This document shows positions 1,687 to 40,354 of a DNA stretch of 40,354 bases, piece after piece; positions within the stretch are counted from its first letter, which is position 1, and every line of letters starts with the position of its first letter. The translations under genes were made by a program, and so were the position numbers. Below the pieces are notes generated by a model that worked only from the letters and a program-made list of their open reading frames with translations, made no database searches and was not told where the DNA came from. Source of the stretch: a virus; IMG/VR virus record IMGVR_UViG_3300025437_000002, positions 1 through 40,354 of that record; one strand, written 5' to 3'.

Positions 1687-3960
1687 GTGGCTTCTGTCGA
1701 CATTACCTTCCCGGGGAATTTGGCACAGGTCGCCAGCAATGACGATCTGCGCGCGGTGCCGTCGACCTACCAGGATGGCGATGTACTGTATGTCGTCAAC
1801 AATCCCCCCGGCCTTTTCGGCTTTGTGCCCGCATCCTTAGCCGCAGATGACGACGAGAATGTTCTGCGTCCGAACGATCGCACACCGCTGCAGGCCGGGC
1901 GATGGGTGCGCAATCCCGCGGGCTTTTCGCCCGGGCCGACTGGTGCGGCGGAAAACACCTACCACGACTTGGCTATCTTTCAGGCCAGCGACGTTGCGCG
2001 AACGAGGGCAACGCTTGTCGGCATCAGTGGCATCCCAAACGGCGACTTCTACTGGTCGCCTGGAGACACGACAGCCGCCGATGGAAAGAACGTAATCGCC
2101 TCGACGGTATCGGGAGCAAATGGGCGCTGGGTGCGCGCCGGCTCTCGAGCGATTGTCTACGTCAATAGCAGCCCAACTGCGACCGGGTCCCAGAATAAGC
2201 AGGCATGGGATGCTGCCTTTGCGGCTGTTGAGGTAGGCGGTCGGATTATCGACCCGCAAGGATCCGCGCGCTATCCGCTCGATACCAGCAACGGGCCTGT
2301 CCAGATCACGAAGTTCTGCACGATCCAGCAGGACGGGCAATGGTTTTCCACTGGTCACACATTCTCGAGCAGCTTCACTCCGCCGTTGGGCATGCCCTTC
2401 TGTGTGTTTGCCAGCGACGGCGTGCCGTTTGTCCTGAAAGGCAGCGGGCAGGCTGAAGGCGACGGCACCAAGGATGATGTGAACACGGGTGACATCCGCT
2501 CGCACCCGACGCTCTATTATCTGAAGGGTGTGACGGGAGCCGTCGCGGAGTCGCCGGCCCTGACGATCAAGAACGTGACCAAGGTTGGCTTTTCGCTTGA
2601 CCGCTGCACAAACTGCACCGTCGCTGTTGATTGGGAGGGCGGGGTCTTCCCGTACAACGACACGAGTTACTTCGGCATTGTCGCGGAAGGTGGCGGAGGA
2701 AAACACGACCTCAGCCGGAACACGGTTCGTCGTGGCGCAGATAACGGCCGCATCGTCAATTTCATCTTTACGGGCGGCTATTATGGCGTGTGCGCGCAAA
2801 ATCGCATCCGAGATAATTCCTATGATGTATGGGAAAAGCTAGCCTACCTGTATGGTGAGCGACAGGATGTAGGCAACAATTCTGGCGTTTGCGTAATGAC
2901 GGATTCCGTTCGCCTAAACAAGGCGACCGGCAGCAAGGTCTACAATCACAAGCTGGGCGACAACGCGGCCGGCATTGTTTCGATCTACGATTCGACTGAC
3001 ATTACGATTGAAAACGCTGTTGCCACCAAACTGCGGCAGATCGCATTTTATGCCGCCCGCAGCGATACTAGCTACACGGGGGGGCTGAAGAACATCCAGA
3101 TTGTGAACCCGACCGCGACGGGAAATCCGACGCAGGCAACCGTGACTGGCTCGATCAGCGGCAACATCCTGACCGTCACCGGCGTGGCGTCAGGCACTCT
3201 TCTGGAGGGGCATTTCCTGCAGGGTGCCGGCCTTGCCACTCCCACCCGAGTGGTAGGCTACGGCACGGTAAACCCGGATGGCACTGGCACCTATTACGTC
3301 AAGCCCGGCAGCCAAACCGTGGCGTCTACCACCATCGTCACCGTCTCCGAGCTTCTCCCAGCAGTGCGCTTCCTAGCGCAGGGCGCGGATGGTGAGGACA
3401 TCACCATCACAAACCCCAATTTCAGCAACTTTGCTACCGACTCTGGCGCTGGTGTGATCGAGTTCACCGGCATCTCTCCCTATGCGTTCCGCAGGGTCAA
3501 GGTTACCGGCTTTAAGGGAATGTCCACGGCCCAGCGCGCCGTCGTGCTGAACAGGGTTACGGATTCTACGATCAATGGCGTAGATTTTACCGGTACGGGG
3601 CCAAGCGCTGTCCAAGAGATCGGATGTGCTCGCAATCGGCATACCGGGATCTTCGCGCCTAACGTCGCCAACCCGGGCGTAGAAGGCCTGTCTGCCACGT
3701 CGACAACCGACACCAGCCAATACGGCATGACGGCGCTCCGCGGCTTGGTGACCCTTACCGGGCCAACGACGACGCTTCTCGGTCGATTCGCTCCGGAGGC
3801 ATGGGCCTCCTTCACGCCCGACAACGATGTCGCCTCTGATTGGCTCAAGACGGAGGGGTCGTTGATCTGGGCAGTTTCGGGCGGGAACATCACCATCCGC
3901 ACGAAAGCCGGCAATACGCCGCCTGCAAATACGAACTTCCGCTATGATGTGAGGAACTGA
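1687..3960 (+). CDS. Tailspike protein (parallel beta-helix, P22 gp9 position)
   Basis: A 757-residue protein starting at GTG, with AGGGA just upstream. The first 90 residues look like a particle-binding head (short hydrophobic strands, then a PNDRTP segment and GRWVRNPAG). From about residue 150 to 700 it is dominated by repeated short strands with Asn, Thr, Gly and Val turns (for example VDWEGG, ITIENA, IQIVNP, ITITNP), typical of right-handed beta-helix tailspikes that bind and often cleave surface polysaccharide. Around residues 478-560 sits an inserted module with the signature [23 protein letters not shown] and SQTVASTT, which seems separate from the helix repeat. Placed after the ejection genes, as gene 9 is in P22. 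Catalytic residues could not be identified, so the enzymatic specificity is unknown. Confidence 0.8.
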
Positions 3961-4562: not shown

Positions 4563-5010
4563 CCCCATACCGGTCACAGTCGCTTCGACTGGATTTACCT
4601 GGACCGCTGCCCTGATGGGGGTCGCAAATCTTCTGATTGGCGGCCTGCTGGTAGCGATCGTCCGCACCCGTCCTGCTCTCAAGAAAATCGCCAACGAGCG
4701 CGAGGCCAACCTTCTTAACGAGCGGGCGGAGGAAATGGAAGCGATGCGCGCTCGGGTAGATGCCTTGGAGGCGAAGCTAGAGCGGGAGCGCGCCCGCCAT
4801 GAGGCGGAACGTGCGCTCGATAGGCATCGGCTCAACAACATGGACCAATGTCTGAACTACCTCTTCATGGTCTTCGAAAAGATGCCCGAAAAAGTCCCGG
4901 AGGCCATGGCGGCTGTCAAGGACATGCGCGCTGAACAACTGAAGGCGGAGGCAATCGAAAAGGCCACGATCCACGCAGCCGAAATCCAGAAAGCGGGAGG
5001 CGAGGAATGA
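4552..5010 (+). CDS. Single-TM coiled-coil protein of the lysis cluster
   Basis: A 152-residue protein whose start lies inside the preceding gene (11-base overlap); tandem ATGs at 4552 and 4555 are both possible. One membrane segment (about residues 14-37) is followed by a long charged coiled coil (about 44-90, rich in Glu, Arg and Ala with heptad spacing), then a helical tail. The N-in, single-anchor and coiled-coil layout resembles inner-membrane spanins, but a better spanin pair lies at 5914-6460. It could be an accessory lysis or holin-regulating protein. It overlaps the endolysin by four bases. Confidence 0.55.
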   Translation: MMPSPIPVTVASTGFTWTAALMGVANLLIGGLLVAIVRTRPALKKIANEREANLLNERAEEMEAMRARVDALEAKLERERARHEAERALDRHRLNNMDQCLNYLFMVFEKMPEKVPEAMAAVKDMRAEQLKAEAIEKATIHAAEIQKAGGEE

Positions 5011-5606
5011 CCGTAGACGACGCGAAGCGCCTGCAAGAGCGGCTGGGACTGGTGCAGGACGGCATTGCCGGCCGCGACACTTACCGCGCTCTGTTCGCCC
5101 GATTTGGCGCGCTGCCGACGATCGCGCCGGAGCTTGGCCTGTCCGCCGCAGTGCATCTCAACGCCTATAGCATCGCAGATAAGCCGCTGCGCCTCGCGCA
5201 CTTCATGGCGCAGGTTGCTCACGAAAGCGGCGGCTTCCGGTACATGGAAGAAATCTGGGGCCCGACCGACGCACAGCGCGCCTATGAGGGTCGTGGCCTG
5301 CTCGGGAACACGCAACCCGGCGATGGTTACCGATACAAGGGGCGCGGGCCGATCCAACTCACCGGCCGGGTGAATTACCGCCTGTTCGGCCGCGCGCTGG
5401 GGCTCGACTTCGAACAGCATCCCGAGATCGTCGCTCTCCCCTCGGTAGGTCTGATGGCTGCCTGTCACTTCTGGCAGATGGGTGGCCTCAACGAGCTAGC
5501 TGACGCTGACGATGTGCTGACCATCACCAAGCGCGTGAACGGCGGCCAAAATGGCCTTGCCGATCGACAGGCGCAGCTTGCGCGAGCGAAGGAGTTGCTG
5601 CTGTGA
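5007..5606 (+). CDS. Endolysin, glycoside hydrolase family 19 (chitinase-like)
   Basis: A 199-residue protein of the GH19 type used by many phages to cleave the glycan strands of peptidoglycan. The catalytic-site signature AHESGGF is at residues 71-77, with Glu73 the likely general acid and Glu81/Glu82 nearby. The substrate-cleft segment YEGRGLLGNTQPGDGYRYKGRG and PIQLTGRVNY follow, as in the family. Length is typical for a single-domain enzyme; the first 35 residues form a small helical, possibly wall-binding, part. There is no signal peptide, so release needs a holin. It starts inside the previous gene (ATGA) and overlaps the next by four bases. Confidence 0.93.
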   Translation: MTVDDAKRLQERLGLVQDGIAGRDTYRALFARFGALPTIAPELGLSAAVHLNAYSIADKPLRLAHFMAQVAHESGGFRYMEEIWGPTDAQRAYEGRGLLGNTQPGDGYRYKGRGPIQLTGRVNYRLFGRALGLDFEQHPEIVALPSVGLMAACHFWQMGGLNELADADDVLTITKRVNGGQNGLADRQAQLARAKELLL

Positions 5607-5917
5607 AGATCCTCAACGCGTTGAAGGGCATCGGCGGGGAATATGAGGTCCAACGCATCTTGGGCGCGTTTGGCACCGTCGTCTATGTCGTCTCCGCCCC
5701 TGCTCTGATCTGGTTTGGCAAGGTCACGGCTTCGTTCGATAGCTTCTGCATCGCCTACCCTGCCGGCATCGCCGCGTGTGTCGGTGCAACGGCCGGTGCC
5801 ATCGCCCTCAAAGACCGCAACGTCGCCACCGCAAAGGTCGTGGAAAGCACCGGGTCCTTGCCCGCCACGCCGCCCATGCCTCCGGCTGGGCCGGCGACCG
5901 TGGATGCGTCGGCATGA
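5603..5917 (+). CDS. Two-TM membrane protein, candidate holin or antiholin
   Basis: A 104-residue protein with two hydrophobic segments (about residues 22-41 and 48-69) and a Pro/Ala-rich tail (PATPPMPPAGPA). It sits between endolysin and spanins and is joined to both by four-base overlaps. Size and topology fit a two-TM holin or an antiholin paired with the three-TM protein at 4239-4562. The assignment is based on position and topology only. Confidence 0.6.
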   Translation: MKILNALKGIGGEYEVQRILGAFGTVVYVVSAPALIWFGKVTASFDSFCIAYPAGIAACVGATAGAIALKDRNVATAKVVESTGSLPATPPMPPAGPATVDASA

Positions 5918-6276
5918 TCCCCGCGTGGATCCTCCGCTACGCTGCCCCGCCGCTGGTGGTGGCCGCGATCGTCGCTTGGCTATGGCTGGGCTGGAGCCAC
6001 GCCGTCAGCCGCGCTGACAAGCTCCAGACGCAGCTAACCGCTCAGACTGCCCGTGCTGATGCTGCCGAGCGTAAGGTCGCCGCCATGGCCCAAGCCGATG
6101 CCGAACGAGCGATGGACGACAGCAAGATAGACCAGATGAAGGACGATCTGACCCATGCAATCGCGACTGCGCCAAAGGGTACTGCTCCCGGCCCTGCTAC
6201 CCTTGCTTTGGGCTGCGCAAGGATGCGGCAGGCAGGACGTACCGCCTCCCCAGCCTATTCAGCTAAGTGCCGTTGA
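5914..6276 (+). CDS. Rz-like inner-membrane spanin (i-spanin)
   Basis: A 120-residue protein with an N-terminal anchor (about residues 10-28) followed by a coiled coil (about 33-80, SRADKLQTQLTAQTARADAAERK...). ATG at 5914 overlaps the previous stop as ATGA; an upstream extension of the frame reads out of register through the preceding gene and was discarded. The last 122 bases overlap, in another frame, a small proline-rich lipoprotein gene. This nested arrangement is the hallmark of Rz/Rz1, which bridge inner and outer membranes and fuse them at the end of lysis. Confidence 0.8.
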   Translation: MIPAWILRYAAPPLVVAAIVAWLWLGWSHAVSRADKLQTQLTAQTARADAAERKVAAMAQADAERAMDDSKIDQMKDDLTHAIATAPKGTAPGPATLALGCARMRQAGRTASPAYSAKCR

Positions 6277-6460
6277 TGCAGCCGCGGCATCCAGACCAAA
6301 GCCGGTCATGCCAGATGCCGCCCTCACCGACGATGCTGCGTCGGCTCAGTACAGCGCTGATCTTGAGCTATGGGGTGAAGGGATATCGCGTGCCTGGGGC
6401 CGTGTTTGTCGGTCGCTGGCTGCGCAGGGTATCGCGGTAAGTTGTCCGGTGGTGAAGTGA
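6155..6460 (+). CDS. Rz1-like outer-membrane lipoprotein spanin (o-spanin)
   Basis: A 101-residue protein starting inside the Rz-like gene in a different frame. It has a basic N-terminus (MQSRLRQR), a hydrophobic core (VLLPALLPLLWAAQG) and Cys24 followed by GRQ, consistent with a type II signal peptide, though the lipobox (AQGC) is not canonical. A proline run (DVPPPQPIQ) after the cysteine is typical of Rz1. Downstream it is longer than classical Rz1. It should pair with the 5914-6276 product. It is the last gene of the rightward late transcript. Confidence 0.78.
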   Translation: MQSRLRQRVLLPALLPLLWAAQGCGRQDVPPPQPIQLSAVDAAAASRPKPVMPDAALTDDAASAQYSADLELWGEGISRAWGRVCRSLAAQGIAVSCPVVK

Positions 6461-9560: not shown

Positions 9561-9676
9561 GTGACCCTCCTACGGTCGCTTGGTCGGGGTCGTCAGCGAG
9601 CAAGGCTGGCGGCCCCTGTTTCGGTTTACGGAGGACCGCTAAGCTATTGATTCATATGGGGCGCTTTTGCCGATGG

Positions 9677-9706
9677 TTTACACGGCAGACCGCGAATAAC
9701 TGACAA
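9677..9706 (-). promoter_or_regulatory. Candidate promoter for the ten-gene leftward cassette
   Basis: On the minus strand TTGTCA (9706-9701) and TGTAAA (9682-9677) are 18 bases apart, resembling sigma70 -35 and -10 boxes. The -10 overlaps one integrase arm site, so integrase binding could affect it. The site lies between the attachment core and gene 9560, hence stays with the cassette after integration. Weak evidence only. Confidence 0.3.
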
Positions 9707-9716
9707 ACACATCAGC

Positions 9717-9762
<46 letters not shown>

Positions 9763-9831
9763 AAAATCAATCACTTAGCGGCTTCCTGCCGCAGTCGGTT
9801 TACAGCCGGTTTACACGCACCGGCTCCGTTC

Positions 9832-10902
9832 TCACACTTTAGCAGCCGCGATTCGCTTGCCAAGCTCAATCACGACACGGGTTTGATCGACGTATTTTAC
9901 CCGGATCGCAGCCACCTCCGTCGTCTTCCAGCCGAGGATGTCGGCAATCTCTTGGTCGTTCAGTCCTGCCAGCATGCACCGGGTGGCGAACGTGCCGCGC
10001 AGGTCGTGAAAATTGCGCTCTACCTTGCTGGCAATCTTGGCGTCGTTGAACCGGCTGCCAAAGCCAGAGGGCGTCCACGGTTGCCAATGGCTGTTCGACA
10101 GGATCGTCTCTGGCAGCGGCTTGCGCCGATCCTCCCGCTTGCCAGCCATCTCGGCAGCATGGCGGTCACGGATGCGCTGGAGCAGTGCCTGCGTATCTCC
10201 TAGCACCGGAACGCGCGCGGTAGCCTTGCCCTTGCTTTTACCGGTCTTCCAGAGGATCGCGTGTTCCCCCACTGCCGACCACGGCAGCCGGATCAGATCG
10301 CCACGCCGCAAGCCGGTGAGAGAAGCAAGCTCCACTGCCTCCTGCATCTCGACAGAGGCATGAGGCATGAATGCGGCTATATCGCCTGCTTCCCAGATCA
10401 CATCGGATCGATCCGCCTCGTAAAGCCGGTCTATGCCTGTCAGGACGCTGGGTGGCAGCTTTCCGCGGTCGTGAGCCCATGAAAGAAGCCGTGTGAAGCA
10501 GGTGATCGCCGCATCCGCGCTACGGGGCTGATGCGCCCACCGATCGCGCCAAGCTAAAACATCCTGCCGCACCCGCCGGTCGGTAAAGACGGCTAGCGAT
10601 ACCGTTCCAAACTCGGCCGATATGCGATCAAGCCAAGTGCCATAGTTGACCCTGGTTGCTTTCGACACGCGACCCCATTCAGCGCTACGGCGGAATTCCT
10701 CGATCAGCGAATCGATCGTCTCGACCGCTACGCGCGGCAGTTCGCGCCGCTTTTCGGCAGCGGCATCGGTCAGTGCAGCAGTGATCTTCGGCCGCGCCCC
10801 CTCAGCGCGCAGGATGCAGGGACCGCCGCGCCAAGCGTAGACGTACCAGACGGCAGCCTGCCCCTTGCGCAGTTTCCTGACGATATGAAGCCCGGCGACC
10901 AT
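9832..10902 (-). CDS. int: Tyrosine recombinase integrase
   Basis: A 356-residue integrase of the phage tyrosine recombinase family, which joins attP to the host tRNA-Pro gene. From the ATG at 10902 the catalytic residues are Arg199 (GLRRGD), a Lys near 222-226 (KTGKSKGK), His299 and Arg302 (HDLRGTFAT), Trp325 (GWKT, replacing the second His) and nucleophile Tyr337 (VKYVDQ). A SAM-like core-binding domain covers about residues 60-150 and a short N-terminal domain may bind the arm sites. ATG at 10902 overlaps the upstream stop as TGATG; an ATG eight codons earlier is less well placed. It is the last gene before attP. Confidence 0.95.
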   Translation of the reverse strand: MVAGLHIVRKLRKGQAAVWYVYAWRGGPCILRAEGARPKITAALTDAAAEKRRELPRVAVETIDSLIEEFRRSAEWGRVSKATRVNYGTWLDRISAEFGTVSLAVFTDRRVRQDVLAWRDRWAHQPRSADAAITCFTRLLSWAHDRGKLPPSVLTGIDRLYEADRSDVIWEAGDIAAFMPHASVEMQEAVELASLTGLRRGDLIRLPWSAVGEHAILWKTGKSKGKATARVPVLGDTQALLQRIRDRHAAEMAGKREDRRKPLPETILSNSHWQPWTPSGFGSRFNDAKIASKVERNFHDLRGTFATRCMLAGLNDQEIADILGWKTTEVAAIRVKYVDQTRVVIELGKRIAAAKV

Positions 10903-11087
10903 CAGCTTGCCTGTTGCGCCTTCCATGCGTCATAGGGGCTCAGCGCCGCGTGACTGGTGTCGGCCGGGAGTGTCAGAATCGATCCATCAGGGCCGATCTT
11001 CACGCTACCGACCTTTACGCCTGCATCTCGCACAGCCTTGATAGCCCGCTTGATTGCGACCGCGCTCGGGTAATGCGCCTCACCCAT
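10902..11087 (-). CDS. Small protein upstream of integrase, possible excisionase/DNA-binding
   Basis: A 61-residue protein beginning MGEAHYPSAVAIKRAIKAVRDAGVKVG, a basic helix pair followed by a short strand section (SVKIGPDGSILTLP). It has an excellent ribosome-binding site (AAAGGAGGGG) and is translationally coupled to int. Position and size would suit an excisionase, but no winged-helix motif is evident, so this is only a possibility. Confidence 0.7.
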   Translation of the reverse strand: MGEAHYPSAVAIKRAIKAVRDAGVKVGSVKIGPDGSILTLPADTSHAALSPYDAWKAQQAS

Positions 11088-11268
11088 CCCGCCCCTCCTT
11101 TATCTCGATACTCGCAAGCAGCATCTTCTCTTGCCATTTGGACAGGACAGCGGCTTCAGCATCTGGGCCGGTGCCGACGCAGACGACCTGATGATCGCCT
11201 TTGACGGTAAGCCGGGTATAGCCTTCGGTGTCCCGGTTCGCTGGAGTGATGTCGAAGGGGGGTGTCAT
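11080..11268 (-). CDS. Small hypothetical protein
   Basis: A 62-residue protein, MTPPFDITPANRDTEGYTRLTVKGDHQVVCVG..., strand-rich then helical (DAEAAVLSKWQEKMLLA). ATG at 11268 is chosen because GGGGAG precedes it and it overlaps the upstream stop; the frame extends ten codons further without support. Unknown function. Confidence 0.6.
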   Translation of the reverse strand: MTPPFDITPANRDTEGYTRLTVKGDHQVVCVGTGPDAEAAVLSKWQEKMLLASIEIKEGRDG

Positions 11269-29476: not shown

Positions 29477-29818
29477 ATGGCGAAGTCGTTCAAAGCAACG
29501 TGGCTCGGTGACGAGGACCCCGGAGCGCAGATCATCCGCATGGGTGACTTGCGTTTCATCAAGGGGGAGCCGACCGATGTTCCTGAAGACCATGCGATGG
29601 CGGAAACGCTGCGCAGTAATCCGATGTTCGCCATCGATGACGCGAAGGCGAACGTCGTACAGGCAGACGAGCCGACCGACGACGAGCAGAGCGCGAATGC
29701 GGATCGGGGAACCGAGCGCGGCGAACTCAAGGCTCAGCTTCGCGCGCTCGGGGTGGACGTGAAGGGCAACCCGAGTGTCGAGACGCTTCGCCAGAAGCTC
29801 GCGGACGCAACCGCGTAA
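29477..29818 (+). CDS. Small head-region protein
   Basis: A 113-residue acidic protein with a strand-rich start (MAKSFKATWLGDEDPGAQIIRMGDLRFIKGEPTDVP) and a C-terminal helical repeat (LKAQLRALGVDVKGNPSVETLRQKLADA) that resembles a SAP/Rho-N-like small DNA- or RNA-binding fold. TAAGGAGG precedes the ATG. Position suggests head completion. Identity uncertain. Confidence 0.6.
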   Translation: MAKSFKATWLGDEDPGAQIIRMGDLRFIKGEPTDVPEDHAMAETLRSNPMFAIDDAKANVVQADEPTDDEQSANADRGTERGELKAQLRALGVDVKGNPSVETLRQKLADATA

Positions 29819-30498
29819 TGGCGACCTGCCGCCACATCGTTAATTCCGCCCTGCGCAAGATTGGAAGACTTGGCGCAGGGCGGGAGCCGCGCGTGGCGGA
29901 CCAAACGGACACGCTGGCGGCGCTTGAGGGCCTGTATGGTTCTTGGGTGTCGTCCGGCGCGTTCGGGCGGCTGCAGGATGTTGTGCCGACCGGCACGACC
30001 TATACGGCCCGCGGTGGGGAGCGGATCCTGCGGCAGGACACGTTGGACGTGGTTCTGCCTGAACTAGTGTCAGATGCTTCCTACAACGATTATGGCCGCC
30101 ATCGTGACGGCTATTACGGAACCGTCGTCTCGATTTCGACGGTAGGCAACCAGACGATCATCGACGTGAAGCCGGGGCAGCCTATTGGCTATGCGCTTCC
30201 GCCACGCGATGCGTCTGCAGTAATCATCACGGACACGCAGGGCGGCAATACCGCCTCGTGGCTGTACGACGGGCATATCAAGCGCTGGGAGCGGCTGGAA
30301 ACGCTGCAACTGGACGATGAGGCTCCGCGCTCCAAGAGCGACCCTGAAGGCCTGAGCGCCGCGCTCGCCATGGAAGTCGCAGACCAGTTCGGTGCCGAGA
30401 TAGGCCCCACCACGCTACGGCAGGGCAATCGCTACCTCGCCGCCCTCACCCAACGGTTCGGCATGCGCTCCGAGCCTGCTGCCGGAGTGTACTGCTGA
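29818..30498 (+). CDS. gp4-like head-tail adaptor protein
   Basis: A 226-residue protein. The N-terminal helical part (CRHIVNSALRKIGRLGAGREPRVADQTDTLAALEGLYGSWV) is the hallmark of P22 gp4-type adaptors, which attach beneath the portal and close the head. ALAMEVADQFGAEIGP near the C-terminus is also typical. It starts by overlapping the previous stop (TAATG). Confidence 0.8.
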   Translation: MATCRHIVNSALRKIGRLGAGREPRVADQTDTLAALEGLYGSWVSSGAFGRLQDVVPTGTTYTARGGERILRQDTLDVVLPELVSDASYNDYGRHRDGYYGTVVSISTVGNQTIIDVKPGQPIGYALPPRDASAVIITDTQGGNTASWLYDGHIKRWERLETLQLDDEAPRSKSDPEGLSAALAMEVADQFGAEIGPTTLRQGNRYLAALTQRFGMRSEPAAGVYC

Positions 30499-30797
30499 TG
30501 GGCGCGACCCTAAGCCGCAGCCTCAACGCTGCGCCAGTCTACATCGTGAACAAGGACGGGCAGGATGTCGACTTCATCCAGCTTCTATCGAACCTCGCGC
30601 GCGTTGGCGGCGGGTCCGCAGATACGACCGACACGGCCGGCAATGCCGTCCCCACCTATCGGGCGCATACCTTCACCTACGACAATTCCGGCAATCTCGC
30701 CACGGACACGGTGACGGACGGGACCAATACCTGGGTCCGAACCTACACTTACACCCCGTCTGGCCCGGCGACTGACAGCGGGTGGGTAAAGCAATGA
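30498..30797 (+). CDS. Small structural protein
   Basis: A 99-residue protein, rich in Thr, Asp and Tyr strands (TYDNSGNLATDTVTDGTNTWVRTYTYTPSG). Such short repeat strands occur in phage tail decorating proteins. It overlaps its neighbours by one and four bases. It begins the 4.9-kb insertion between gp4- and gp10-like genes. Confidence 0.55.
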   Translation: MGATLSRSLNAAPVYIVNKDGQDVDFIQLLSNLARVGGGSADTTDTAGNAVPTYRAHTFTYDNSGNLATDTVTDGTNTWVRTYTYTPSGPATDSGWVKQ

Positions 30798-31195
30798 GCG
30801 ATCCGAACCGCGTCATTCCGTTCATGCGGAATAGTGACGTTAACCCTGCGATCGTGCCGATCGCCATCGCACCGGCTGCGTACCAAATTCCGGGCGGAGC
30901 CGCTGGGCTCAACGCCGCAGGTGTCACGGCGTTCACGGCCACGAACCCCAACCCGTTTGCCATCTGGCTTCGCGGTTGGTCCGGCAGCATGACGCCTGTC
31001 CCTGACCCTACTGACAAGGGCAACTACATCCCGCCTGGCGCGCAAATCACGCAGTCCAGCGTGCGCCCAGACTATCTAGTCGCTACCCCTGACACCAAGT
31101 CCCTGCTTTGGCCTTATTACGGAGCAGACGGCACGACGCCGCTCTATGACATGAGCAAGGCGCGGCTGGTCATCGTGTTTGGATCGGGGCTGTGA
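30794..31195 (+). CDS. Structural protein of the tail insertion
   Basis: A 133-residue protein, Pro/Ala/Gly-rich with strand segments (GVTAFTATNPNPFAIWLRGWSGSMTPVPDPTDKGNYIPPG). ATG at 30794 overlaps the previous stop. The pattern fits a small beta-sandwich attached to the tail; not matched to a named family. Confidence 0.55.
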   Translation: MSDPNRVIPFMRNSDVNPAIVPIAIAPAAYQIPGGAAGLNAAGVTAFTATNPNPFAIWLRGWSGSMTPVPDPTDKGNYIPPGAQITQSSVRPDYLVATPDTKSLLWPYYGADGTTPLYDMSKARLVIVFGSGL

Positions 31196-31749
31196 CCGTC
31201 AAGGCTCCGGGCATTGGAACGCAGGTGACGTGGACGACCCTGCCCGGCAAGCCATCCGTGTTCGCGCCGGCAGCCCATACGCATCCATGGATCGATATAA
31301 CCGGCAAGCCGACGACCTTTGCGCCATCGGCTCATACCCACTTGTGGGCGGATATCACGGACCGCCCCACCATTCCTGCTGTGACCCCGCTCGCAACGGC
31401 GACACCCCAGCCGCTCGGCACGGCCGCAGTCGGCACGTCCACCAATGCCGCCCGCGAAGATCACGTGCATGCCAAGCCTGTGGGCCTACTAACGCTGCTC
31501 GGTACGGCGACGGTAGGCGAGACGATGACGGTGGGCGTGGCTCTGGGGGTGCGGCGCTACACCCAGACCATCACTGGCGCTGCGGTGGGGGATCGCTTGG
31601 TCATCGCCCTGACCGGTGCGCCATCCAACGGCACGATCCAGGACGCCTACGTCTCGGCGGCCAACACAGCGAATATTGGCCTGCTGGTACCTGCCCTGTC
31701 CATCGGCGCGGTCGTTGCCGTGCCCCTCGCAGTCTACAAGGTAAGCTGA
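31192..31749 (+). CDS. Tail fibre-like protein with FAPxAHTH repeats
   Basis: A 185-residue protein with two copies of a tail-fibre repeat, GKPSVFAPAAHTHPWIDI and GKPTTFAPSAHTHLWADI, then SLGTAAVGTS-like and EDHVHA segments, features of phage fibre shafts and receptor-binding adaptors that trimerise through His pairs. A strand-rich C-terminal domain follows. GTG at 31192 overlaps the previous stop. Confidence 0.75.
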   Translation: MTVKAPGIGTQVTWTTLPGKPSVFAPAAHTHPWIDITGKPTTFAPSAHTHLWADITDRPTIPAVTPLATATPQPLGTAAVGTSTNAAREDHVHAKPVGLLTLLGTATVGETMTVGVALGVRRYTQTITGAAVGDRLVIALTGAPSNGTIQDAYVSAANTANIGLLVPALSIGAVVAVPLAVYKVS

Positions 31750-33971
31750 TGGTCACGCAGGTCATCCAGGCGGGAAGCAGCCTGCGGGTCGTCATTGAGG
31801 CTCGAGGCATCGAGAGTACGTCAATCGTCAACGGCCGGCTGATGGTGTCGTACTCGGACGGCTCCGTAGAGGATGCTGGCGCGGTTGGCGGTGGGACGCC
31901 TACCCCAACGCCTGGTCCGACCCCAACCCCGACGCATACCCTGCTGGCGCCTGTCGTCACCACGGCAACGGGCGACGACGCCTACAGCGTGGCGTTCAAC
32001 GTCGTGCTGCCGCAGGACAATGCCCTGCCCGACACCGGGTACATGGGCTTTGGCCTCAAGGCGGAGCGGGCGACCAACCCGCTGTTTACGATCGGGTACA
32101 CCACCGAAACGAACCTGCTGAACAGCACCACGATCAGCGCGGGCGATGCGGACTTCCTGATCGCGAACAACCTGACGCCGGGTACGGGCTACTATTTCCG
32201 GTTCAGCGTCATTCCGCCGATCGGGGACGCGGTCAACCTGCCCTCGCCCACCACGGCGGTTGGACCGTTGACGGTCGCAGGCAATCCCACCTCCACGTTG
32301 AACCCTGTTTCTGCGCTTTTGGCGGATAGCTGGGTCTCGGCAGGCAACCCGCCGTACCCTGGGTATTTCGCAGGCGCCTATTACGCTGCGCACCCGGAGC
32401 ATCAGGTTTCCAACTTCTCGATGGGCGGCCAAGGTCTCGGCTACGCCGCGTCGAAGATTCCTGACGTCGTTGCCATCCGGCCTTACGTCATCTTCCTGAG
32501 CTTCGGTCCGAACGACTTCATGAACAGCGGCGTCACGCTGTCTCAGTACATCGCGAGCTACGCAGACATCATCAACCAGTTCAAAACTCAGCTACCGGGC
32601 GTCGCTATCGCTGTCCGCACGCTGACTGAGCGTCACGCGTCTGATGGCGGCGCGGATGGCAGCGGCGGCTACAACGACCTCTACAACGCCAACCGCAAGG
32701 CGTTCAACGCTCAGGTCCGTCAGTGGAAGACGGACGGCTTCATCGCCCAAGTTGTCGACATCGGCGCTGACCCGGTGATCGGCCGCGATGGTGGCATGGA
32801 AATCGGATCGCCTGAGTCTGCAGACGGCTTGCATCTCACCGAAGGCCCGACGCCCGCCGGTCAGGGCTACGCCATCCCGATCTTCGCCAACGCCATGAAT
32901 GCGCTCTACGCCGCCACGCCTTTGCCGAGCGGTGGATCCACAGGAGACCCCGACGTGTCCAGTTTTGCGATCAGTCCCACGTCGCTGTCGCAGCCTGAAG
33001 GCAACAGCGGCACAACGCCTTTCGTCTACACCGTCACCCGCACGGGCGGCACGACCTACGCCGCTGCGATCGATTGGGCCGTGACGGGAACGGGCACCAA
33101 CCCGGCAGCAGCTACCGACTTCGTAGGCGGCACCTTCCCATCCGGCACGGTGACGTTCGCTGCCGGCGCAACCACGGGAACGATCACGGTCAATGTGGCC
33201 GGCGATACCAGCATCGAGTCCGACGAGACGTTTACGGTTACCCTGACCAACGGCCGCACGACGGGCACGATCACGACCGCGGCGGCTACCGGCACGATCA
33301 CCAACGACGATACGAGCGGCAGTGGTGGCGGTGGAGGCGGTACGCAGCCTGTCGGCTATGCCTCGACCTACAGCTATGAGGGCGCACCCGGCTTCGCCAC
33401 GTCGTTCACCTTCCCGACCAATCAGGTCTACGCGACGGCAGGCAAGGCGCTGGTCTATATCGACAGCTTCGGGGACGCCTCGCGCCAGCCCGCAACGGTC
33501 ACCCTCACGCCCACTGGCGGCGGCACAGCGGTCAGCCTCACCCGCGTCAATTCCTCTGAAGGCTTGTGGCACGCCAACGTTTCGGCAGGCACCTATACGC
33601 TGTCGATGACAGCAACGAGCGCCGGCTTTGCGTACGTCGGCATGGTTTCGGTTCTCGCGACGAACGCGGCGGCTACGCTGGGGGCAACCCAGGTCCAGCC
33701 TGGCGCCAACCGCAACAACCCCATCTCCTTCCCCGGCTCGCAGGTCGTCGGGACGAACGCGCTGGGCTTCTACATCGTCAACAGCACCTCGACCGTTGCC
33801 TCGCGTAGCGACGGCTCAACCGAGCGGGTCGCGCTGATGATCAACGACACGCAGTTTGGCGGGGTTCACTACGTCAGCCTTGCAACGCTGCCGGCCACGG
33901 CCACGCCGACCTACAGCCTGTCGGCCAACCCTGGCGACCGTGGCATTGCCGTCACGGTGAACGCGGCATGA
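31749..33971 (+). CDS. Virion-associated SGNH hydrolase with Calx-beta module
   Basis: A 740-residue multidomain protein. Order: N-terminal attachment segment (1-48), a Pro/Thr linker PTPTPGPTPTPTHT (51-64), a fibronectin-like beta domain (about 65-180), an SGNH esterase domain (about 185-395), a Calx-beta domain (about 403-525, ending GTITNDD), a Gly/Ser linker and a C-terminal beta domain. SGNH residues: Ser194 in ADSWV, Gly229 in MGGQG, Asn255 in GPNDF, Asp359/His362 in DGLHL. Such enzymes on virions often remove acetyl or other esters from surface polysaccharide. ATG at 31749 overlaps the previous stop; the longer open frame is a shadow of the fibre gene. Confidence 0.85.
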   Translation: MVTQVIQAGSSLRVVIEARGIESTSIVNGRLMVSYSDGSVEDAGAVGGGTPTPTPGPTPTPTHTLLAPVVTTATGDDAYSVAFNVVLPQDNALPDTGYMGFGLKAERATNPLFTIGYTTETNLLNSTTISAGDADFLIANNLTPGTGYYFRFSVIPPIGDAVNLPSPTTAVGPLTVAGNPTSTLNPVSALLADSWVSAGNPPYPGYFAGAYYAAHPEHQVSNFSMGGQGLGYAASKIPDVVAIRPYVIFLSFGPNDFMNSGVTLSQYIASYADIINQFKTQLPGVAIAVRTLTERHASDGGADGSGGYNDLYNANRKAFNAQVRQWKTDGFIAQVVDIGADPVIGRDGGMEIGSPESADGLHLTEGPTPAGQGYAIPIFANAMNALYAATPLPSGGSTGDPDVSSFAISPTSLSQPEGNSGTTPFVYTVTRTGGTTYAAAIDWAVTGTGTNPAAATDFVGGTFPSGTVTFAAGATTGTITVNVAGDTSIESDETFTVTLTNGRTTGTITTAAATGTITNDDTSGSGGGGGGTQPVGYASTYSYEGAPGFATSFTFPTNQVYATAGKALVYIDSFGDASRQPATVTLTPTGGGTAVSLTRVNSSEGLWHANVSAGTYTLSMTATSAGFAYVGMVSVLATNAAATLGATQVQPGANRNNPISFPGSQVVGTNALGFYIVNSTSTVASRSDGSTERVALMINDTQFGGVHYVSLATLPATATPTYSLSANPGDRGIAVTVNAA

Positions 33972-35362
33972 TGCGCTGGATCCTCGCCCTCGCCGCGCTG
34001 ATCGCGACGCCTGCCGCCGCGCAACTCAACCTGCCGGCGCAGCTCACCTATACGCTGACCGACCCGACGCCGACCTATCCGGTGCCGGCCGATGCGGAGA
34101 TGCCAGCGGCCATCAGCGAGACATACGACGTGTCGGCGCTGACCAGCACGTCCGCCACGCTCTACAAGGCGTCCAACTACGCAGGGTCACAGGCGAAGGC
34201 TCGTTTCACCTGCGTTCCGAACGACGTTGTCGGCTATATCGATCAGCTTCGCGGCCCCGGTCAGCAGCCGTTCGGCCATGGTCACGGCCCGTTCTTCGGT
34301 GGCACCAGCGTCAGCAAGGATATCACGACTTGGACGCAGCTACGCACCGCTGCGGCAGCCAAGAGCGCGGCTGGCATGCTTGCCTCGACCTGCCCCGGCG
34401 ACCGCATCAACGGCTCGCTGTACTGGCAGCCTTGGGTGATGAAGGCGAATGCGCTGGGTGACGGCGTCACGCGGCTGAAGAAGGTCAACCTGATCACGCT
34501 GTACTACGTGATCGATGACCCGAACGCTGCGGCGACGACGGAGCGTCTGCGGCGGGGTTTCGGAGCCGTGTTCGGGATGAACATGGACGACCCCGACATG
34601 CTGGCGTTCAAGGCGCTGATCAACGCCGCGAACCAGCGCAATACCCAGATCCAGCTTCAGTTTACCGAGGCAAGCCACGGTGAATGGGTCTGCGACGGCG
34701 ACAGCAACGTCTACAGCTATCTCGCGAATTACGATGGCACGCCCGCGTTCAACTGCCCTGCCGGCAATACGCTGTACGCTCGCGTACAAAGCAACGTGTG
34801 CTGGAACGGACATCTCCGCTCGACGGACGGGTATAGCCATATCATCCCGCAGGTCCGCGCAGGGCAGGACGGCAAGCTGCATTGCCCAGCCGAATATCCC
34901 TACAAGCTGCCGCAGATTGAGACCATCTTCCGCTACTCGCACATGGGTCCGAGCGACTACAGCAAGTGGCGACTGTCGAGCGATGACCACGCCGCGATGA
35001 TCACCGGGCGGGCCTTCCGCAACGGGGAAAGTCTGCACACCGACTATATCTTCGGCTGGGACGAGCGCTTCAGCGACGATTGGCAGTGCGCCATCGGCAT
35101 GAAAGTGCCGAACCGCCTTTGCACGATCGCAGAGGGCGGCACGGGACCGCACGACCTCGATTACAGCACGACCGGCCCGCGCGGCAACGGCGGCCCTGTC
35201 ACGCGCCTGCTGTCCGATAGCGTCGTGCCGAACAGCGGCGGGAACCTGCTGATAGACCTTAGCCGTAGCTTCCCGGGCAGCCAGCCCAGCGATTGGCTCG
35301 CGATGCCTGCGCTCGGCACCAGCCAGCCGGTCAAGGGGCCGGTGACCATCCATGTCCATTGA
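33968..35362 (+). CDS. Secreted DUF1996-domain protein inside the tail cluster
   Basis: A 464-residue protein with a classical signal peptide (MMRWILALAALIATPAAAQ). The mature part has DUF1996 features: a histidine-rich GHGHGPFFGG (103-112), the WQPW...ALGDG stretch, the TDGYSHIIPQVRAG segment and YKLPQIETIFRYSH, with six or more cysteines that could form disulphides. DUF1996 is best known from fungal and actinobacterial secreted proteins of unknown role. It overlaps the SGNH gene and precedes gp10-like. A signal peptide is unexpected for a virion component; it may be exported by the host or handled with the particle. Confidence 0.8.
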   Translation: MMRWILALAALIATPAAAQLNLPAQLTYTLTDPTPTYPVPADAEMPAAISETYDVSALTSTSATLYKASNYAGSQAKARFTCVPNDVVGYIDQLRGPGQQPFGHGHGPFFGGTSVSKDITTWTQLRTAAAAKSAAGMLASTCPGDRINGSLYWQPWVMKANALGDGVTRLKKVNLITLYYVIDDPNAAATTERLRRGFGAVFGMNMDDPDMLAFKALINAANQRNTQIQLQFTEASHGEWVCDGDSNVYSYLANYDGTPAFNCPAGNTLYARVQSNVCWNGHLRSTDGYSHIIPQVRAGQDGKLHCPAEYPYKLPQIETIFRYSHMGPSDYSKWRLSSDDHAAMITGRAFRNGESLHTDYIFGWDERFSDDWQCAIGMKVPNRLCTIAEGGTGPHDLDYSTTGPRGNGGPVTRLLSDSVVPNSGGNLLIDLSRSFPGSQPSDWLAMPALGTSQPVKGPVTIHVH

Positions 35363-35371
35363 GGCAGCAGC

Positions 35372-36709
35372 ATGGCGGTAATCCCGCTCGGTATCGGTTC
35401 CTACAGGCGCGCGTCTGGTTTCGTGCCGGAGGTAGTGCTGCGCAACCTGTACCTAGAGAAGGATCAAAGCGGCATCAGCCCAGATAATACTCTGCGGATC
35501 CAACGCCCGGGGCTTACCCGCATTGCCTCAGTAGGGGCGTATCCCATTGAGGGGCTGCACTACCGCACCTCTACGGGGGAGCGGCTAGCCGTCTCTGCGG
35601 GAACCTTTTACGTAAACGAGGTTGCCAGCGGCATGTTGGGCAACCTTGGTCGCGTTGCGATGGTGTCCACTCCGTTTGCATCTCTGATCGTTAGCGGCGG
35701 TGATCTGTATATCTGGGATACGGTTCTCACCGGCCTTCAGCTTCCCGATGACGCGCCGTCCAACGGCTACGTCCAGGATGTCGACCAGCTCAATGGGTAT
35801 GGTATCGTTCTGCAGCCCAACGGACGGTTCTACTGGATCGTGCCGGGGCAGACGACGATCGACCCGCTGAACTATGCCACAGCGGAGAGCCTGCCCGACA
35901 AGGCCAAGGCTGTACGTCGGCTTGGTGACGAGTTCTGGATCTTCGGGGACGAGAACGTCGAAGTATGGCAGGCCACCGGCGACCTTGATGCGCCTTTCCA
36001 GCGCGCGAACGGCCGCAACTACGAACGCGGGTGTCTCTATCGCGATGCCGTGCGCCGCTTCGACAATACGCTGGTCTGGATCGGGGATGACAACCAGGTC
36101 TATCGCGGATCGTCCGTCCCTCAAGTAATCAGCGATAGCGGCATTGCCGAGCGTATCCGCCGCGCTGCCGGGGACTGTTCCGCAACGACCTTCGGCATTG
36201 ATGGTCACAGCTTTTATGTGCTGACAATCCCGGGACAGGGCACGTTCGCCTATGATGCTGCGACGCAGGCATGGAGCGAATTTTCTACCGCGGCGACGGG
36301 CGGCTGGATTGCCCAGACTGGTTATCAGGTCAATGGCTCAATCATCATGGGCTCGGGCCTAGACGGGCGGTTGTTCCGCGTCGATGCCAACGCGTTCACG
36401 GACGATGGTGCTGCTTTCGAACGCGCAGTGACGGGCTTGGTCGCGATCAGTGGCAAGCGGCCTCGCAATGACAGCCTTTCAGTCGGCGTTGGGGCTTCGG
36501 ATCAGGCGACGATCCGTATCCGGTGGCGCGATGGGCAGGACGACTATCCCGCCGTGTACGAGGAAGTCGACGCATTCGCGCCGTACGACATCGCCACTAT
36601 TTGGCGGCTGGGCATGCCAGAGCAACCCTATCGCGAGGTAGAGGTAAGCTGCGTGGATCCGGTAGGCGTTCGCTTCTCCGGCATGATGGCGAACGAAGCA
36701 TGGCGGTAA
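35372..36709 (+). CDS. gp10-like tail hub / DNA stabilization protein
   Basis: A 445-residue protein of the P22 gp10 type, a hexameric plug below gp4 that closes the DNA channel and carries the tailspikes. Repeated blade-like segments support a beta-propeller (GLHYRTSTGERLAVSAG, FWIFGDENVEVWQATGD, LVWIGDDNQVYRGSSVP, FYVLTIPGQGTFAYDAATQAWSEFST). It starts after GAGG and is the first gene after the insertion, restoring P22 order. Confidence 0.85.
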   Translation: MAVIPLGIGSYRRASGFVPEVVLRNLYLEKDQSGISPDNTLRIQRPGLTRIASVGAYPIEGLHYRTSTGERLAVSAGTFYVNEVASGMLGNLGRVAMVSTPFASLIVSGGDLYIWDTVLTGLQLPDDAPSNGYVQDVDQLNGYGIVLQPNGRFYWIVPGQTTIDPLNYATAESLPDKAKAVRRLGDEFWIFGDENVEVWQATGDLDAPFQRANGRNYERGCLYRDAVRRFDNTLVWIGDDNQVYRGSSVPQVISDSGIAERIRRAAGDCSATTFGIDGHSFYVLTIPGQGTFAYDAATQAWSEFSTAATGGWIAQTGYQVNGSIIMGSGLDGRLFRVDANAFTDDGAAFERAVTGLVAISGKRPRNDSLSVGVGASDQATIRIRWRDGQDDYPAVYEEVDAFAPYDIATIWRLGMPEQPYREVEVSCVDPVGVRFSGMMANEAWR

Positions 36710-40072: not shown

Positions 40073-40354
40073 TGGGCAAGTACCGCATCACGGCGCCCAA
40101 CGGTCAGACCTTCGATGTCGAGGGGCCCGATAACGCCTCTCAGGCCGATCTAGAGCATATTGCCCGTCAGGCCGCGGGAGTTGGTGGGAATTACCCCGTC
40201 GACAGCAGCGGCGTTCAGCATCAGCAGCCGCAACAGGATCCGGAAACGGCGCTTGTGAAGGATGTCGGTTCTGCTGTGGGCGAGATCGGGCTTGGGGCCT
40301 TGCAGGGGGGCGCAAACGTTCTGGACCATGCCGCCAACTGGGTGCAGTCAGGCC
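40072..40354 (+). CDS. gp16-like ejection protein, 5' part of the junction-spanning gene
   Basis: The ATG at 40072 overlaps the previous stop (TAATG). The N-terminus MGKYRITAPNGQTFDVEGPD then NASQADLEHIARQAAG is a conserved leader of internal virion proteins in alphaproteobacterial podophages. The frame runs through the end of the window and continues unbroken at base 3 to the stop at 1523, giving 568 residues. See the entry at 1-1523 for function. Confidence 0.8.
   Translation, partial: MGKYRITAPNGQTFDVEGPDNASQADLEHIARQAAGVGGNYPVDSSGVQHQQPQQDPETALVKDVGSAVGEIGLGALQGGANVLDHAANWVQSG
40256..40354 (+). repeat. 99-base overlap identical to bases 1-99
   Basis: The final 99 bases equal the first 99, with the same gene frame. 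This indicates a circular contig with an assembler overlap of 99, giving a 40,255-bp unique genome. Physical ends of a headful-packaged virion would be permuted and are not represented here. Confidence 0.95.

Follow-up and report, generated by a model that had tools for sequence, protein, structure and literature searches.

A predicted exported DUF1996 protein in an accessory late-gene cassette of a probable Sphingomonadales podophage

Phages are usually considered to attack capsule and slime by means of virion-fixed enzymes. The exopolysaccharide depolymerases and deacetylases concerned, namely tailspikes and SGNH tail esterases, are virion parts without signal peptides. The DUF1996 protein described here would share their class of target and is encoded beside a gene for an SGNH protein, but its catalysis is only putative. 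We know of no DUF1996 protein with a known biochemical activity. A study of fungal secretomes found the domain often alongside CBM1, CBM6 and WSC domains and proposed that it may relate to polysaccharide degradation (PMC7679414), and those fungal DUF1996 proteins whose genes have been deleted reside in the vacuole and influence stress tolerance (PMC4738358). Fungal PF09362 proteins, such as the Beauveria VLPs and Wsc1I, have the same domain and signature residues as the phage protein and show the CBM/WSC association (PMC4738358, PMC7679414, PMC9148135), but they are cellular and stress-related, whereas the phage protein is a late gene product with a bacterial Sec signal. No published description of a phage or Sphingomonas DUF1996 protein was found in the literature searched. 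Among phages, Pseudanabaena phage Pam1 shares the virion gene order TerL-portal-scaffold-MCP-cement-adaptor-needle head with the genome analysed here, but lacks its fibre-SGNH-DUF1996 cassette, the needle-head (Hc3) gene coming immediately after that for the adaptor.

The phage genome and its accessory cassette

The window, that is, the whole stretch of DNA analysed, carries the same 99-base direct repeat at both ends (1-99 and 40256-40354), and the genome, circularly permuted in appearance, is therefore probably complete. As such, the window probably represents a complete, Pam1/P22-like podophage genome of 40 kb, and the presence of an integrase gene (Table 1) indicates that the phage is probably temperate. 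The best match of the window MCP in the phage collection was that of Pam1 (38% identity), while a search of 398 genomes from the order to which Sphingomonas sediminicola belongs identified prophages in five genomes, with MCP identities of up to 50%. On the basis of this difference Sphingomonadales represent the best guess, and the probable host by sequence. A defence-system reading of the window proteins was dropped, as PADLOC gave no match.

In four Sphingomonadales prophages Hc3 directly follows the adaptor, as in Pam1, and DUF1996 was not found in the 20 kb read. Given this shared arrangement in Pam1 and the four prophages, the region located between the two genes in the window (30498-35362) is considered an accessory insert. 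The cassette genes overlap end to start, with the DUF1996 gene in last position and its ATG start overlapping the TGA stop of the SGNH gene as ATGA. A scan of region 30300-36000, based on the sigma-70 consensus only, revealed no promoter-like sites and no terminator-like site on the plus strand. With this overlap and the negative sigma-70 scan, the promoter and terminator of an independently transcribed moron were not found for the DUF1996 gene. The first-pass annotation had placed the gene in a phage tail cluster, which agrees with its overlap with the preceding gene and its location in the late operon, extending from TerL to the DNA ejection gene, but its neighbours form an inserted fibre/esterase cassette outside the conserved core tail genes.

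Table 1. Features of the window and of related viral contigs
Feature	Position	Strand	Basis or remark
IMG/VR record IMGVR_UViG_3300025437_000002	1-40,354		whole window; 40,354 bases
Phage integrase	9832-10923 (or 10926)	-	PF00589, E=6e-15
TerL	start 23423	+	late operon
Portal	start 24930	+	late operon
Scaffold	start 27019	+	assigned by position
MCP	start 27850	+	late operon
Cement gene	between MCP and adaptor	+	late gene order
Adaptor, left cassette border	29818-30498	+	homology to adaptors directly preceding Hc3 in four prophages; Pam1 order
First accessory-cassette gene	30498-30797	+	no family match (Pfam, PHROG)
Small cassette gene	30782-31195	+	overlaps both neighbours
Tail-fibre shaft-like protein, HxHxWxDITGKP repeats	31192-31749	+	several tail PHROGs
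SGNH/GDSL hydrolase and Calx-beta protein, 742 aa	31743-33971	+	domain match; motifs ADS, GPND and DGLH present
DUF1996 gene, 464 aa, ATG start	33968-35362	+	PF09362 match
Sec signal peptide, MMRWILALAALIATPAAA	33968-34021	+	read from sequence; predicted cleavage before Q19
DUF1996 domain	34253-35059	+	residues 96-364
Head-closure Hc3/needle-head protein, right cassette border	35372-36709	+	phrog_578, E=6e-63
DNA ejection protein	start 37737	+	PHROG match
Thioredoxin-family genes of other viral contigs	L015: 249-566; L016: 3818-4108; L020: 9678-9995; L021: 9445-9894		directly upstream of DUF1996

The DUF1996 protein and its viral relatives

The window protein belongs to the DUF1996 family by its match to the PF09362 profile (E=1e-18; 68.7 bits; cut-off: 27), while a PHROG search gave no match. 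All blocks of the published family signature, D-x4-P-x5-6-HxH-x3-G ... DxSxYWxP ... CP ... HxDx3GW (PMC4738358), can be recognised (D92-x4-P97; HGH 104-106; NGSLYWQP 148-155; CP 306-307; HTDYIFGW 357-364), the deviations being N148, where the fungal formula has D, and an HxH-to-G spacer that exceeds that of relatives by one residue. Conserved positions of the domain include H104/H106, H291, H357-x-D359, W153, W279 and W364, along with at least five cysteines (82, 142, 242, 278 and 306), and H104/H106, H291, H357 and D359 may contribute to a metal or catalytic site. Two AlphaFold2 models (pLDDT: 73 and 80; pTM: 0.76 and 0.82) gave nothing significant in Foldseek searches against the PDB and viral models, VIA-align second looks reached best Z values of 2.7 and 2.0 with no recognisable solved relative, and a sequence search of the PDB with the family profile gave no match. 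A likeness to jelly-roll glucanases was set aside (Foldseek E about 0.5 or worse). Since neither model resembles a solved fold, an enzymatic role cannot be claimed.

The N-terminus shows a positive charge at R3, a hydrophobic stretch at residues 4-13 and AAA followed by Q at 16-19, and thus has a Sec/SPase-I signal peptide by sequence criteria (charged n-region, hydrophobic core and AxA). Neither a lipobox with +1 cysteine, the first 81 residues being free of cysteine, nor another anchor was seen in the window protein. Both elements reported by the first-pass annotation, a DUF1996 protein and its signal peptide, are thus confirmed.

A scan of viral contigs with the single window protein gave no match, alignment-based queries being needed, and an alignment-based scan of IMG/VR identified 59 viral loci with DUF1996. 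A profile search with start choice gave 71 matches, of which 59 were distinct and one of these bacterial; PF09362 was matched by 53 of the 54 viral proteins scanned, and two also carry Calx-beta. One annotated phage relative, labelled hypothetical, was recovered from INPHARED. Siphovirus ctgwJ031 (UOF76731; MW202423) encodes a DUF1996 protein with a signal peptide, but it is another phage type and its product, annotated as a hypothetical protein, has an N-terminal extension. Signal peptides were called by one fixed in-house rule, not SignalP, and only untruncated, distinct viral proteins were counted. By this rule a signal peptide is predicted in 49/56 viral DUF1996 proteins, 45 of them when the frame is read from its first ATG, and most homologues have an n-h-c N-terminus with an AxA cleavage site; among neighbouring genes of at least 150 aa the same rule was positive for 40/570 (96/570 if the start slides by 100 codons), which rules out a chance signal peptide. 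The signal is thus not absent from all homologues, an absence that by the first-pass annotation would have refuted its interpretation. Among the seven rule-negative proteins, the N-terminus of L009 is long and hydrophobic and that of L033 is likely a signal peptide if translation starts at a GTG, while L015, L016, L020 and L021 form a single clade. A thioredoxin-family gene (PF00085, CxxC) is located directly upstream of DUF1996 in all four members of this one clade, where its product could possibly act as a cytoplasmic folding helper replacing export and periplasmic disulfide formation.

The phage DUF1996 genes, for which the first-pass annotation had proposed a survey, lie near tail, spike, endolysin, spanin and Hc3 genes. 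Their position varies, from before Hc3 in the window to after the spike gene (L023) or before TerL (L054/L068), and the neighbour is an endolysin gene in L030, L033 and L037. L005 encodes a homologue of the SGNH partner (44% identity), and its gene overlaps the DUF1996 gene by ATGA as in the window. Ratios of dN/dS are approximately 0 to 0.22 in eight of ten close phage pairs, mostly 0.06-0.14 in pairs with unsaturated dS, and most close pairs are under strong purifying selection; two distant phage pairs have ratios of 0.44 and 0.58.

The closest relative of the window protein shares only 33% identity with it and its terminal tree branch is long (1.78), indicating that the gene is not a recent pick-up; these values, together with the late-operon position, rule out recent host cargo; such cargo, if lacking late expression, had been named as a refutation by the first-pass annotation. 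Given the long branch, the exact place of the window protein in the tree is unsure. Viral and Sphingomonadales sequences are intermixed in the tree of 141 proteins, and at least 13 label changes indicate several exchanges of DUF1996 genes between phages and hosts.

Chromosomal DUF1996 genes and exopolysaccharide loci

The chromosomal comparison comprised 27 Sphingomonadales genomes, which were picked via their DUF1996 loci and are mutually related. All 27 contain between one and four DUF1996 copies, and by the same signal rule the chromosomal proteins are mostly secreted or lipoproteins (76/87). Neighbouring genes encode sugar transferases (Bac_transf), Wzx-type, Wzy-type (Wzy_C), WecG, GT1, acyltransferase, PilZ and Poly_export proteins. 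A Poly_export gene is found within 20 kb of 22/70 DUF1996 loci, in 18/27 genomes, where 2.5 would be expected by area, and within 10 kb of 15/70 (expected: 1.3). For OmpA, used as a control in the same genomes, the corresponding counts are 5/123 within 20 kb and 0/123 within 10 kb, and the difference between DUF1996 and OmpA (Fisher p=3e-7) is only indicative, as the genomes are related and DUF1996-selected, so that independence is overstated. A search near host DUF1996 loci found no gene related to the SGNH gene of the cassette. The chromosomal proteins share the domain and predicted export with the window protein, to which they are up to 33% identical, but they are encoded in exopolysaccharide loci and are often lipoproteins, whereas the window protein has no lipobox and is encoded in a late operon.

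Possible roles of the exported protein

We suggest, with moderate confidence, that the window DUF1996 product is a non-virion accessory protein which would be exported late in infection and bind or process host surface polysaccharide. Translation would take place late, coupled via the ATGA overlap to that of the upstream SGNH-esterase fibre gene. The strongly patterned Sec signal peptide would direct the protein to the periplasm and beyond, where the conserved cysteines could pair, and the mature domain may then bind, cleave or modify the exopolysaccharide of the probable Sphingomonadales host, as the host gene neighbourhoods suggest. Together with the virion-borne esterase it could loosen or mask the sugar coat, such that progeny would exit and disperse, or phage would no longer be trapped by debris and infected cells, with the gene itself being carried in a swappable cassette outside the conserved virion core. 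Of the options raised by the first-pass annotation, export for action on the host surface is the best supported, because chromosomal Sphingomonadales DUF1996 genes cluster with exopolysaccharide genes, and its purpose may be release from slime, a reinfection block or a change of the lysogen. The link to polysaccharide is drawn from host homologues no more than 33% identical to the window protein, and the vacuolar, stress-related nature of the fungal DUF1996 proteins studied counts against it (PMC4738358).

A different purpose for the same export would be the blocking of superinfection or of debris, the protein remaining attached to the envelope or to polysaccharide that has been shed and masking or removing the receptor, which would keep further phages from adsorbing. 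It is this purpose alone that separates it from the explanation preferred above, and the export signal, the late position, the surface-sugar link and the temperate phage with its integrase would all fit. The window protein is, however, unlike classic exclusion lipoproteins in having no lipobox or anchor, and late expression comes late for exclusion, such that we regard this purpose as rather unlikely. Expression in the lysogen, with an altered exopolysaccharide benefiting the host bacterium, would suit a temperate phage and the prophage-like Sphingomonas copies that are near-identical to phage ones (L123, the BK235 copy, = L026; L070/L071 proteins with 89-90% identity to the L005 protein), but translational coupling inside the late operon, with no separate promoter in the sigma-70 scan, makes such lysogenic conversion improbable. 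Least probable is a virion-associated receptor-binding or depolymerase protein that keeps its hydrophobic N-terminus and anchors in the particle or acts at entry, since the n-h-c layout and AxA cleavage sites of most homologues are of a cleavable type, which also disfavours the role on released particles considered in the first-pass annotation, and export would take the protein away from cytoplasmic assembly, even though fibre and esterase genes share the cassette, some phage DUF1996 proteins carry Calx-beta or a module of the tail-spike-position protein, and the four homologues without signal peptide could stay cytoplasmic.

Should the preferred explanation, late export and action on surface polysaccharide, hold true, this widespread phage family would represent a second, public-good-like route against capsule and slime, and exopolysaccharide would provide a function hypothesis for a domain common to bacteria and fungi. 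A broader and doubtful extension is that DUF1996 constitutes an unrecognised glycan-active class of unsolved fold, repeatedly taken up by Sphingomonadales phages as a secreted, non-virion late factor for exopolysaccharide processing, with the signal-less lines pairing with thioredoxin for cytoplasmic disulfides.

The module mentioned above comprises approximately 80 residues and is found in the tail-spike-position protein of the window (gene 1687-3960; residues 475-554) and, inside or beside the domain, in the DUF1996 proteins L058, L059 and L064 (residues 236-321; 35-39% identity); by sequence it appears to be mobile, and common to virion and predicted exported proteins. Two different DUF1996 genes are present on each of three viral contigs, in tandem in L036 (8700-9983 and 9993-11567), at 5122-6327 and 8882-10780 in L037, and at 4775-6091 (minus strand) and 9566-11161 (plus strand) in L056. 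The Sphingomonas genome MA1305 contains three copies (L070, L071 and L073) with 76-90% identity to the viral L005, which probably represent several related prophages. Many Sphingomonas exopolysaccharide loci furthermore harbor two diverged DUF1996 genes a few kb apart, one coding for a lipoprotein and the other for a secreted protein, as in L103 (9806-11056 and 12419-13708) and similar loci elsewhere.
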